Assembly (NCBI GenBank): GCA_944325685.1
Contig: CALVBC010000029.1
Coordinates: forward strand, 62,001-126,000
DNA from: an uncultured Erysipelotrichaceae bacterium
Lineage (GTDB): Bacteria > Bacillota_I > Bacilli_A > Erysipelotrichales > Erysipelotrichaceae
DNA: 64,000 nt
Direction of reading: 5' to 3'
Shown here: piece by piece, positions 47,639 to 51,801 of the stretch
How positions within the stretch are numbered: the stretch's first letter is position 1
Layout of the letters: every line of letters starts with the position of its first letter
Made by a program: the position numbers and the translations under genes
The notes under the pieces: model-generated
Database searches by the model: none
What the model saw: the letters and a program-made list of their open reading frames with translations, nothing else
Told to the model about the DNA's origin: nothing

Positions 47639-47652
47639 GATTTTTCGATTTG

Positions 47653-47686
47653 ACCCCCTTATATGGAAGTGTAAGGAGGTTTTTTA
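47653..47686 (+). promoter_or_regulatory. Terminator-like hairpin sequestering the comGA ribosome site
   Basis: ACCCCCTTA (47653-47661) pairs with TAAGGAGGT (47672-47680) through nine positions with one C-A mismatch, and seven T follow. The right arm is the AAGGAGG Shine-Dalgarno site of comGA. The hairpin would stop read-through from the methyltransferase gene and also mask comGA translation. Confidence 0.65.
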
Positions 47687-47688
47687 TT

Positions 47689-48672
47689 TTGGAAGAGAGA
47701 TTGAATGCCTTATTACGCTTGGCGATCAGTTTGAAAGCGACGGATATCCATTTTACGAGGAATCGTCTTGGCACTAAGATCGAGATGCGGATCAACGATC
47801 GGATCAGACTGGTCAAAAGCGACCCCAAAGATGATAAGATGATCCGCTACTTACAATATCTGGCCAACCTTGATGTCGGTAATCTAATCAAGCCCCAGAC
47901 GGGACAATTTGAGTATCTGATCGATGATGTCATCGTGTCACTGCGCTTTGCCTTGATCCATAGTGCGCACCTCGATAATGCGGTCCTTCGGATCTTGAAC
48001 AGCGACCTTGGTCTAAACATCCATTCACTGTCGACAAGCGCTGATCAAAACAATTTCTTTCGCAAGATGATGTCTTATCGCAGTGGTCTATATGTCTGTA
48101 GTGGTCCAACCGGTTCTGGTAAAACGACCAATTTGTACACCTTATTACATGGCGTCAATGGTAAGAAGATCTTTACGATCGAAGATCCGGTCGAGATGCA
48201 ATATGAAGACTTTATCCAATTGAACATCAACGAAGCGATCGGCTTTGGCTATGATGAAGCCATCAAACAGGTCTTACGGCATGATCCTGACATCATCATG
48301 ATCGGGGAGATCCGTGATGAACTTACGGCCCATATGGCGATCAGAGCGGCTAATACAGGCCATACGGTCATCACGAGCCTTCATGCGCCGAGTTGTCCTT
48401 TAGCGATCGAGCGGATCTTAGAGTTAAAGGTCGAAAAGGGTCAATTATTCAATGTGCTGATCGGTGTATCCAATCAAAGGCTCTTTTCACGTGTCGGTTC
48501 AGATCGTAAAGTCGTCATCTATGAGACGATGGACCGTGATGAGATCATCCACTATTTTCACTATGGTGAGGTCAGCGGTGATTTTTACACCTTAGAAGAA
48601 AGGATCGAAGATGCAAAAAGGCAAGGTATTATCCAAACTAGTGCCAGCGCGAGCGAATTTACTGTCGCATGA
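47689..48672 (+). CDS. comGA: ComGA, traffic ATPase of the competence pseudopilus
   Basis: The 327-residue GspE/PilB-type ATPase powers assembly of the DNA-uptake pseudopilus. It shows ATDIHFTRNRLGTKIEMRIN, Walker A GPTGSGKTTNLYTLL near residue 150, an Asp box (IFTIEDPVEMQYEDFIQLNI), Walker B RHDPDIIMIGEIRDELTA and a HTVITSLHAPSC His box. The four-cysteine zinc site of longer GspE proteins is absent, as usual for ComGA. The start is TTG at 47689, nine bases after AAGGAGG; upstream sequence is the masking hairpin. Confidence 0.93.
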   Translation: MEERLNALLRLAISLKATDIHFTRNRLGTKIEMRINDRIRLVKSDPKDDKMIRYLQYLANLDVGNLIKPQTGQFEYLIDDVIVSLRFALIHSAHLDNAVLRILNSDLGLNIHSLSTSADQNNFFRKMMSYRSGLYVCSGPTGSGKTTNLYTLLHGVNGKKIFTIEDPVEMQYEDFIQLNINEAIGFGYDEAIKQVLRHDPDIIMIGEIRDELTAHMAIRAANTGHTVITSLHAPSCPLAIERILELKVEKGQLFNVLIGVSNQRLFSRVGSDRKVVIYETMDRDEIIHYFHYGEVSGDFYTLEERIEDAKRQGIIQTSASASEFTVA

Positions 48673-49633
48673 CGACTTAGAAGGATTAGCTGAGCTACTT
48701 AAGACTGATCTATCCTTGACCGATGCCTTCTCGATCATCAAGACCAAGCGCAATGAAAAGGTGATCGATAAGATAAGTGAAAGGCTTAAAAACGGGGAGA
48801 TGATCGAAGTCATCTTCAAAGATCACATCGCTTCATCACTAAGGGTCACCTTTGAGGCTTTTATCTCCTATCTTTCTTTTGAGATGACTTTAAGACTGAT
48901 CCTATCGATCGAGAAAGAAGAAGGTGGCTTTACTAAAAAGGTCAAAAAGGATCTGACCTATCCGATCTTACTTTTGACCTTTAGTGTCATCGGTATCTAT
49001 CTTTTCAATAGTTATTGTTTTGAGCCACTACTTTACAGTATGGATCAATTCGCCAGTGACCTAACTGATCTTTATCTCTTTAAAGATGTCCTAGATGTCA
49101 TCATCACGGTGATGTTTGTACTGATATTATGTGGCCTTATCTTATTCTTGTATTTCCATAAGCCGAAAAGACAGGTCTTAGCTTATATCTTACTTGAAAG
49201 GTATATGAAGGATTCACTGATCAAAGAGTACCTGACCAGTCAATTCGTCTTATTCTTTGCCGAGTGTTATAAGATCGGACTTAAGACCAAGGACAGCATC
49301 GATATCTTACGTCACCTTAGATCAAAGCCCCTGGTATCCTTTATCGCTTCTAATGTCGATAGAGGACTACTTGAGGGTAAGGGGATGGCTGGCGCATTAG
49401 ACAATAAGTATCTTGATGAAAGGATCATCAGGTTCATCAAGATCGCCATGTATAGTGGTGAGATGGAAGGGATGTTAGAGAGTTATCTAGTGCAGTTTCG
49501 CAAACGGTTTACCAAGTATTGTGCCAAATGGGCAAAAGCCATCCAGGTGGCTAGTTATGGGATGATCGGTCTTGTGATCATCTTCATCTATCAGATCTTG
49601 TTTATCCCGATGGGAGTATTAGGAGGGTTATGA
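48611..49633 (+). CDS. comGB: ComGB, membrane platform protein of the competence pseudopilus
   Basis: The 340-residue GspF/PilC-type protein has three membrane segments: near residues 117-136, 172-192 and a C-terminal 315-335 helix, flanked by two helical cytoplasmic domains. The second domain contains SQFVLFFAECYKIGLKTKDS and IKIAMYSGEMEGMLESY. It connects ComGA to the pilus. It overlaps comGA by 62 bases, unusually long; GAAAGGA precedes its ATG. Confidence 0.88.
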   Translation: MQKGKVLSKLVPARANLLSHDDLEGLAELLKTDLSLTDAFSIIKTKRNEKVIDKISERLKNGEMIEVIFKDHIASSLRVTFEAFISYLSFEMTLRLILSIEKEEGGFTKKVKKDLTYPILLLTFSVIGIYLFNSYCFEPLLYSMDQFASDLTDLYLFKDVLDVIITVMFVLILCGLILFLYFHKPKRQVLAYILLERYMKDSLIKEYLTSQFVLFFAECYKIGLKTKDSIDILRHLRSKPLVSFIASNVDRGLLEGKGMAGALDNKYLDERIIRFIKIAMYSGEMEGMLESYLVQFRKRFTKYCAKWAKAIQVASYGMIGLVIIFIYQILFIPMGVLGGL

Positions 49634-49926
49634 AAAAACGCGGTTTTACATTACTAGAGATGATCGTTGTCGTCCTTATCATCTCAGTCTTATTCTTACT
49701 TACGATCCCCAATGTCAATAAGGTCATGACATCGGTGGAAGATGTCGGTTGTGACGCTTTGACGAAGGTCATCGACGCAGCGATCGTCGAATTCAAGCTT
49801 GACTACAATGAATATCCGACTTCTCTGTCTGACCTTGTGAGTGGTGGCTATATCAGCGAGGAACAGACCAAATGTTCTAATGGTAAAGCGATCACCATCG
49901 TCGATGGTCATGCGTATGTGGAATAG
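49630..49926 (+). CDS. comGC: ComGC, major pseudopilin
   Basis: The 98-residue prepilin has a short leader MKKRG then F-T-L-L-E as the cleavage and methylation site (cut before Phe; Glu at mature position 5), a hydrophobic helix, then a globular end with two Cys (GCDAL and KCSNG). It needs a ComC peptidase, which is not encoded here. The start overlaps comGB (ATGA). Confidence 0.92.
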   Translation: MKKRGFTLLEMIVVVLIISVLFLLTIPNVNKVMTSVEDVGCDALTKVIDAAIVEFKLDYNEYPTSLSDLVSGGYISEEQTKCSNGKAITIVDGHAYVE

Positions 49927-50227
49927 AAAAAAGGGCTTTTTGATGGCAGAGTTATTAGTCGTCATCGTCATCATGACCTTTTTGTGTCTTTTATATCTGC
50001 CAAGATATCCTAGTGTTGACAACAGTGACTATGGTTTTATCGCTGACTATCTACTAGCCCAATCAGAAGCGATGAAAGAAAAGGAGCGTGTCGATCTTTC
50101 GAGTGAACTTGATGATGATATCTACTTTTCGGAAAATGGCAATGTCAATCAAGCCAAGACGATCAAAGGCAAGAAACATACGATCGTGATCCATTTAGGC
50201 AATGGTTATATCACCTATGAAAAATAA
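49916..50227 (+). CDS. comGD: ComGD-like minor pseudopilin
   Basis: The 103-residue prepilin-like protein starts MWNRKKGFLMAELLVVIVIM: a basic leader, G-F cleavage point, Glu at mature position 5, hydrophobic helix. A short globular part follows. It overlaps comGC by 11 bases. An ATG two codons earlier (49910) is possible. The assignment as ComGD rests on operon position. Confidence 0.78.
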   Translation: MWNRKKGFLMAELLVVIVIMTFLCLLYLPRYPSVDNSDYGFIADYLLAQSEAMKEKERVDLSSELDDDIYFSENGNVNQAKTIKGKKHTIVIHLGNGYITYEK

Positions 50228-50417
50228 GGGCTTTATCCTAGTTGATGCCCTGATCGTCGTGGTATTAGTCATTGCGATGACCTTTGTCTTTTCGGCGACC
50301 AATGACATCAAAAGGCGCTATGAAGAGATAACAGAGGATCACTTTGATGATGACCATCTAGAAGGGATCGATGTGAAGAGGTGTGAAAGATGTATCGAAG
50401 AAGTGGATTTATCTTAA
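50217..50417 (+). CDS. ComGE-like minor pseudopilin
   Basis: The 66-residue protein starts MKNKGFILVDALIVVVLVIA. It has the prepilin G-F cleavage site, but Asp stands at mature position 5 where Glu is normal. A charged tail with one CxxC (RCERC) follows. It is very short for a minor pilin. It overlaps comGD by 11 bases and comGF by 28; the identity comes from order in the operon. Confidence 0.7.
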   Translation: MKNKGFILVDALIVVVLVIAMTFVFSATNDIKRRYEEITEDHFDDDHLEGIDVKRCERCIEEVDLS

Positions 50418-50782
50418 AGGATATGTTGATCGCGCTTTTGATCGTCATGATCATGTTTCCGATCGTCGTCGCGATCATGGATACAGTGGCTACATTCAAG
50501 ATGATCGATGATCGTCTGATCGATGAGATCGCGATCTTGCATCTACAAAAGCGGATGATCATCGCTGATGATATCAACGTCTCTTTAAAAGAGGTCAGCT
50601 TTAAAAGTGGTGATGATACTTGGATCATCAAAAGCGATGACGAGCGTGTCTATCTAACGCCTGGCTATCAGTTATTCATCGATGGCGCAAAAGAGGCGAG
50701 CTTTTATAGCGATGGCAAATATGTCTATCTTTTCTATATCAAGGATGAAAGGGAATATGAGAAGATCATCACGGTCCTTTAA
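50390..50782 (+). CDS. ComGF-like minor pseudopilin
   Basis: The 130-residue product starts MYRRSGFILKDMLIALLIVM: basic leader, G-F site, a hydrophobic helix, then a soluble domain with QKRMIIADDINVSLKEVSF and YLTPGYQLFIDGAK resembling ComGF. As in the ComGE-like protein, Asp occupies the usual Glu5 place. It overlaps its neighbours on both sides. Confidence 0.75.
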   Translation: MYRRSGFILKDMLIALLIVMIMFPIVVAIMDTVATFKMIDDRLIDEIAILHLQKRMIIADDINVSLKEVSFKSGDDTWIIKSDDERVYLTPGYQLFIDGAKEASFYSDGKYVYLFYIKDEREYEKIITVL

Positions 50783-51158
50783 AGGCTATACATCGGTCTT
50801 TGTACTGATGCTATTTGTGTTTATCATATCGACCTGTGTCGCTTATAGCACCGATCTTATCAAACAGCTATCGACGATCGAAAATCTCAAAGAGGTAAAA
50901 AAGGATATCGCTGATGAATATAAGGTACTCATAACTTTTGACTGTCTATTAAAAAACTATGAGCCAGAGCCGATCTACGACGAAGAGGGCAATGAGATCG
51001 AAAATGAAGACCCAGAGATCATCGTCGAAGACTTTGATGCTGACGGGATATATGTCGATGTCACGAATGCTGGTGACTTTTTTCTCTTGCACTACGACGA
51101 TGCAGCATTTAAGGTATATGGTGATCTAGAGGGCATAAAAGCGTACGAGTATCACTAA
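50757..51158 (+). CDS. ComGG-like protein, last gene of the comG operon
   Basis: The 133-residue protein has a basic N-terminus MRRSSRSFKGYTSVFVLMLF and one hydrophobic helix (about 12-31), then a soluble acidic domain (EPIYDEEGNEIENEDPEIIV). GAAAGGGA precedes the ATG at 50757. The signal lacks the typical G-F-x4-E pattern (KGYTSVFV), as in other ComGG proteins, which are the most divergent subunits. The assignment is positional. No terminator is evident before efp. Confidence 0.68.
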   Translation: MRRSSRSFKGYTSVFVLMLFVFIISTCVAYSTDLIKQLSTIENLKEVKKDIADEYKVLITFDCLLKNYEPEPIYDEEGNEIENEDPEIIVEDFDADGIYVDVTNAGDFFLLHYDDAAFKVYGDLEGIKAYEYH

Positions 51159-51243: not shown

Positions 51244-51801
51244 ATGATTATAGTTAATGATTTAAGACCAGGGATCACTTTTGAATATGAAAACAATATC
51301 TTCACGGTATTGGACGTCGATCGCAACAAGACAGCGATGCGTCAGATGATCGTCAAGGTCAAAGTCAAAAACTTACGTACCGGTGTCATCAATGAGATCT
51401 CATTCACCGGTGGTGATAAGGTCGAACAAGCAGCTATCGATAAGAAGAAGATGCAATATCTATACGATAGCGGTGATGCTTTAGTATTCATGGACAATGA
51501 TACATATGATCAGATCGAGATCAGCAAGGATAACTTAAAATGGGAAATGAATTTCCTCATCCCTAATCTCGAAGTTGAGATCACGATGTATGATAGCGAG
51601 ATCTTAGGTCTGACCTTACCGGATAAGGTAGCTTTAGAGCTCGTAGAGTGTGAATCAGCGGTCAAAGGCGATACACAGACCGGCGCTCTTAAAAACGGTA
51701 AATGCGAGACTGGCTTAGAAGTCAAGGTGCCGTTATTCATCGATGCTGGCGAGAAGATCTTAGTTTCGACAGTTGATGGCAAATATTCAAGTCGTGCTTG
51801 A
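51244..51801 (+). CDS. efp: Elongation factor P with atypical tip loop
   Basis: The 185-residue three-domain EF-P relieves ribosome stalling at polyprolines. It has the N-terminal MIIVNDLRPGITFEYENNIF, the middle VKNLRTGVINEISFTGGDKV and the C-terminal OB domain with QTGALKNGKCETGLEVKVPL. Colinear alignment with B. subtilis EF-P puts Met32 at the modified Lys32; the loop reads DRNKTAMRQM instead of HVKPGKGAAF. The Lys/Arg that carries the activating modification is thus missing or shifted (Arg33 is next). The rest of the protein looks intact. Confidence 0.93.
   Translation: MIIVNDLRPGITFEYENNIFTVLDVDRNKTAMRQMIVKVKVKNLRTGVINEISFTGGDKVEQAAIDKKKMQYLYDSGDALVFMDNDTYDQIEISKDNLKWEMNFLIPNLEVEITMYDSEILGLTLPDKVALELVECESAVKGDTQTGALKNGKCETGLEVKVPLFIDAGEKILVSTVDGKYSSRA

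Follow-up and report, generated by a model that had tools for sequence, protein, structure and literature searches.

The EF-P gene of the window and its tip loop

The window, a stretch of 64,000 nucleotides from a gut bacterium (G000:C29:62001-126000), carries at positions 51244..51801 of its forward strand a gene whose translation is a 185-residue EF-P. The protein matched the curated profile TIGR00038 (efp) with 213.9 bits, above the cut-off of 185.8, and contained all three Pfam domains of EF-P (PF08207, PF01132, and PF09285). We refer to its lineage, that of the Erysipelotrichales/Mycoplasmatales, as type A and to the KPGKG EF-P copy as type B. An AF2 model of the protein (pLDDT 88.6) had the EF-P fold, a fold search with this model aligned 185 columns to solved EF-Ps including those of S. 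aureus and T. thermophilus, and the TM values against the full-length EF-Ps 9a6x, 6rji, 1ueb, and 6rk3 were 0.81-0.94. By profile, domain content, and predicted fold, the gene at 51244-51801 is a genuine EF-P of an order-wide lineage and has lost Pro30 and Lys32. Directly 5′ of it, positions 47650-51158 of the window hold comG-like competence pseudopilus genes; comG 5′ and cmk-der 3′ of the type A EF-P recur in many relatives.

In the predicted model, strands 18-27 and 36-43 flank the β3-β4 loop of residues 28-35 (51325..51348, forward strand), which reads NKTAMRQM in place of VKPGKGAA and is encoded by the codons AAC AAG ACA GCG ATG CGT CAG ATG. The Met32 codon (ATG; 51337..51339, forward strand) falls at the position that is modified in other EF-Ps, and in the alignments to S. 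aureus (6rk3), C. thermocellum (1yby), and T. thermophilus (1ueb) EF-P this residue lies opposite the tip residue with no gap near the loop. The codon that follows (CGT; 51340..51342, forward strand) specifies Arg33, the slid basic residue that we propose does the work of the tip. With Thr30 and Met32 instead of Pro30 and Lys32, the protein is not a member of the Lys-type (KPGKG) EF-Ps.

A sequence-only reading of this DNA had placed Met32, colinearly and without gaps, at the modified position and had described the KPGKG tip as absent from an otherwise canonical protein. Both points were borne out, the former by the alignments to solved EF-Ps and by the structural alignment over 185 columns, which keeps Met32 at the modified position, and the latter by the translation, the TIGR00038 match, and the three Pfam domains. 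The description of an EF-P without the tip loop is correct in that KPGKG is gone and is too strong if taken literally, as loop length and the charge near the tip are kept. Among the options offered there for the loop, an unmodified form and a role for Arg33 were narrowed, since one basic residue is always present at 32, 33, or 34, and Lys29 lost ground; Lys29 is found in KPGKG EF-Ps too and is thus not a special replacement.

A single basic residue across the order

Type A EF-P was nearly universal among 148 genomes of the order, each at least 95% complete, and the loop was read from 135 of them. Exactly one Lys or Arg was present at positions 32-34 in 135 of 135 members (R32 in 58, R33 in 64, and K34 in 13). 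The Arg32 loops had NKTARxxx and NKQGR/NKQAR forms, the Met/Gln32-Arg33 loops had NKTAMR or NKTAQR forms, and the Met32-Lys34 loop read NKTAMAKM. The alignment across relatives that the sequence-only reading had proposed as a check shows the odd loop to mark an order-wide lineage of EF-P. Two apparent losses of EF-P were not accepted: G024 gave no match even for LysRS or ValS, and G245 gave no candidates in its one listed search, both cases probably reflecting unreadable records.

Across 61 Met32-Arg33 genes, residues N28, K29, T30, A31, M32, R33, and M35 were invariant, yet all or nearly all synonymous codons were in use for the Thr, Ala, and Arg of the loop. Identity between species in these genes was 99% for the loop and 60% and 77% for the flanking segments. 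Because the loop is this conserved while its synonymous codons vary, we conclude that it is under purifying selection; order-wide conservation and the varied codons also rule out annotation error, frameshift, and sequencing error as sources of the odd loop. The same data bear on the proposal that rescue has passed to ABCF ATPases or other factors, with type A left to drift. The ABCF proteins YfmR and YkpA/YbiT do resolve stalls in B. subtilis (PMC11381351), but the 99% identity of the loop between species, alongside wide variation in its synonymous codons, excludes drift, which leaves this proposal with very little probability.

Trees built without the loop columns united type A and the Mycoplasmatales EF-Ps in one clade (support 95 in one tree and 99/96 in the other), the Mycoplasmatales loops being SKSGR-, SKTGR-, or SKQGR-like. 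Type B was separate from type A and grouped with families f12, f17, and f20 of the class. Parsimony on a tree without loop columns counts 7 changes between Arg32, X32-Arg33, and Met32-Lys34, of which a minimum of 3 for Arg33 and 3 for Lys34 are required even if one relies on well-supported branches only; the basic residue has therefore slid more than once with its presence kept. Judged from these trees, type A is the vertically inherited EF-P of the Erysipelotrichales/Mycoplasmatales, with Arg32 in some lineages and Met/Gln32 in others. Among the best 80 loci of a scan of named genomes, the NKTA-type loop occurred only in Erysipelotrichales-like records, such as Solobacterium and Erysipelothrix assemblies, and most of the other loci had KPGKG.

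Several unusual loops were also seen. Besides genus g142, a distant phylum has Gln32-Arg33 as a separate case (loop ARTAQRRA of a Zixibacteria MAG, L122). In Acholeplasmatales EF-Ps (L171 and L172 of G118, and L101) the loop is shortened by one residue and reads VLQNKVAY; both EF-Ps seen in G118 are of this type, and no KPGKG copy was seen there. The loop NKQGRLSG (L037, L038, L039, L271, L272, and L277) occurs with a strongly divergent domain I and with domains II-III that match those of relatives, possibly a domain replacement, and L169 (G103) has the loop MNVPTKRGS. In L275 (G198) and L276 (G182), the type A match begins at about residue 56-66 and there is an internal stop codon; G182 has a second EF-P.

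The position of the basic residue could also be explained by a register shift within the loop, a one-residue slip that would bring Arg33 into the spatial place of Lys32 and require no new tip chemistry. R33 directly follows M32, and the Gln32-Arg33 pairs of g142 and of the Zixibacteria loop (RTAQRRA) can be read in the same way, but the length of the loop is unchanged, the alignments are gap-free on both sides, and the K34 versions would need a slip of two residues. We regard such a shift as possible but doubtful; as it is a version of the main explanation given below and no separate reading, its probability overlaps with the one stated there.

The second EF-P and its gene cassette

A canonical KPGKG EF-P is encoded on the same contig outside the window (G000:C29:36581-37132), 76.7 kb upstream of the window EF-P, and this type B protein is 40% identical to the window protein. 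The idea that the window genome has a sole EF-P thus fails, and the sequence-only reading had itself named a second canonical copy in the genome as a refutation of its account of the loop. A KPGKG backup does not explain the odd loop away, however, because in 41 genomes, spread over 24 genera, no EF-P other than the Met32 type was detected, and 23 of these genomes are at least 97% complete. A recount with TIGR00038 in 41 relatives agreed on sole Met32 copies in that set, for example in G013 and G015. Genomes with a second EF-P were included in 9 of 28 Met32 genus entries versus 17 of 37 Arg32 entries (Fisher p = 0.31), counts that are not phylogenetically independent and that derive from a survey in which many genomes are metagenome assemblies. 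This lack of association, together with the 41 sole-copy genomes, rules out that Met32 is tolerated only thanks to a KPGKG backup. The PPP motif of ValS was kept in 9 of 9 Met32-only genomes checked, and therefore the demand for EF-P activity, that is the proline-stalling problem, remains.

It is also conceivable that the function of type A has shifted, as in a specialised or degenerate EfpL-like paralogue, and that the KPGKG copy carries out polyproline rescue. Both copies are present in the window genome, second EF-Ps occur within the 9 Met32 genus entries given above, and EfpL is a precedent for the specialisation of a paralogue (PMC11611912). Such a shift is nevertheless opposed by the 41 genomes with the Met32 type alone, by the rarity of type B without type A (3 of 146 genomes), and by the strong purifying selection on the loop. 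The window protein, moreover, is far from reaching the cut-offs of the EfpL models, with 118.7 bits against 216 and 110.8 against 264, and has no loop insertion, which rules out membership in EfpL/YeiP, and we consider a shifted function quite improbable.

The type B gene of the window genome is part of a cluster upstream of the window (L003:6578-10125 on G000:C29) in which efp-B, an SDR reductase gene, an inserted two-gene VapBC-like pair, and ynbB follow one another, all within 3.6 kb. Of the 63 genomes that have a second or type B EF-P, 61 encode full-length YnbB, as do 2 of the 83 that lack such a copy; these counts, too, are not phylogenetically independent. The pairing of YnbB with type B holds, with few exceptions, within the nine genera that have type B in some species only. 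In G225 and G276, both fragmented genomes, YnbB was present and only the Met32 EF-P was detected. The SDR gene adjoins type B in all 12 of the first loci and in further ones, three of them outside the order, and in 16 of 16 genomes with both on one contig, ynbB and the SDR gene are no more than about 4 kb apart. On the evidence of linkage and distribution, gain and loss within the order affect the efp-SDR-ynbB cluster as a whole, and the type B KPGKG EF-P is probably the modified, accessory EF-P cassette.

In B. subtilis, YnbB is strictly required for 5-aminopentanol formation and GsaB is the third strictly required gene (PMC5885033). The type B SDR is FabG-like and gave 157 bits with the YmfI model, versus a cut-off of 238, and the GsaB/HemL model, which had no match in G000 at 1e-60, is distributed without regard to type B. 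A complete B. subtilis 5-aminopentanol pathway for type B is thus unsupported, and because a GsaB counterpart is absent from G000 at this threshold the group carried by type B may differ from 5-aminopentanol.

Modification of the tip and comparison with known systems

In the general view, EF-P requires that a Lys or Arg at a single set position be chemically extended. We found EarP in none of the 148 order genomes (at least 95% complete). The single EarP match of the first set lay on contig C126 of G007 (L052), which also carries an Arg-type EF-P with a KSGRNAA loop, 30% identical to the window protein and of the rhamnosylation type; EarP was rejected as native to G007, the contig being taken as foreign and probably contamination, and the match demonstrates that the search worked. 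With Met32 rather than Arg32 and no EarP in the 148 genomes, the window protein is not of the EarP type. Nor is it of the EpmA type, as nothing above the cut-off was found for EpmA in 41 genomes, the best matches sitting in open frames of about 480-640 aa that we read as LysRS. YmfI likewise gave nothing above its cut-off in the genomes searched. Beside the type A gene no candidate modifier was found, its neighbours being the competence pseudopilus operon and cmk-der. The sequence-only reading had seen no EpmA/EpmB/EarP-like gene in the window, and these searches for epmA, earP, and ymfI, which it had proposed, returned no native match over the cut-off; no known modification enzyme could be matched to the window EF-P.

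Type A might instead be modified, on the slid Arg/Lys or on Lys29, by an enzyme unrelated to EarP, EpmA, YmfI, and YnbB. The strict retention of a single basic residue at 32-34 resembles that of known modification sites, rhamnosylation is what is otherwise known of Arg-type EF-Ps that lack Pro at -2, and fewer than half of bacteria encode any of the known enzymes that modify EF-P (PMC6544042). Such an enzyme, however, would have had to follow a target that moved several times among 32, 33, and 34 and between Arg and Lys, an awkward demand on a single enzyme, and the neighbourhood of the gene offers no candidate. The Arg32 version, in addition, is common to the tiny-genome Mycoplasmatales, and in a published survey of mollicutes the enzymes that modify EF-P in E. 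coli were all missing (PMC4014445). We judge this alternative unlikely.

We therefore favor, with a probability of roughly 60%, the reading that type A EF-P is functional without a known tip modification and that the type B KPGKG protein represents the modified, accessory cassette. Type A EF-P would bind the ribosomal E site and rescue proline-stalled ribosomes, with the backbone turn of NKTA and one unmodified basic side chain (at 32, 33, or 34; Arg33 here) touching the CCA end of the P-site tRNA. Sequence, conservation, distribution, and linkage are observed; the lack of modification, the role of Arg33, and the rescue activity we infer, with direct support from distribution and selection. 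The K34M variant of E. coli EF-P is inactive (PMC6544042), and the unmodified Arg-type EF-P of N. meningitidis works poorly (PMC4739656). An unmodified Met/Arg tip must thus depend on the altered context of the loop, and because these two proteins were tested in other loop contexts the results limit, without excluding, an unmodified tip. For the wider claim, that an order-wide EF-P lineage is unmodified, that its single essential basic residue is free to occupy 32, 33, or 34, and that in the same order the modified KPGKG EF-P is gained and lost as a cassette that includes its modification enzymes, we consider the odds evenly balanced.

The window EF-P shares three domains and its length with the EF-Ps of B. 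subtilis and S. aureus (KPGKG, 5-aminopentanol on Lys32) and is 42-46% identical to the S. aureus-type EF-P and other top structural matches; in contrast to these, its NKTAMRQM loop has no Pro30 or Lys32, and YnbB and the SDR go with type B. Like the EarP-rhamnosylated Arg-type EF-Ps of Pseudomonas and Neisseria, it has no Pro at -2 and an Arg near the tip, but its Arg is at 33 and EarP is absent from the 148 order genomes. As a paralogue of EF-P whose Arg near the tip is unmodified, EfpL (YeiP) resembles type A as read here, but it has a loop extension and forms a distinct branch. An actinobacterial EF-P subfamily was reportedly found by Pinheiro et al. in 2020 to act unmodified; it is reported to keep a Pro/Lys-type loop, unlike the NKTAMRQM loop of the window protein. 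The residue class of the window EF-P is that of the Met- and Gln-tip EF-Ps of Volkwein et al. 2019, which in the available text of that survey make up 0.77% and 0.6% of 1166 EF-Ps, never have Pro at -2, and are counted as a group and not described (PMC6544042).

In the literature searched, with subscription journals thinly covered, we found no description of the type A group, of a basic residue that slides, or of an efp-SDR-ynbB cassette. Described here are a lineage of Met/Gln-tip EF-Ps, a slid basic residue, and a paralogue cassette, the last of which points to the SDR as a candidate reductase that acts with YnbB. The Met-tip EF-P on which dozens of species rely has its basic residue at the next position or the one after it, and apparently no known enzyme modifies it. 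If the favored reading is true, the need for EF-P modification could be tested in natural pairs of close relatives, as those with and without a second, probably modified EF-P would reveal what modification adds.
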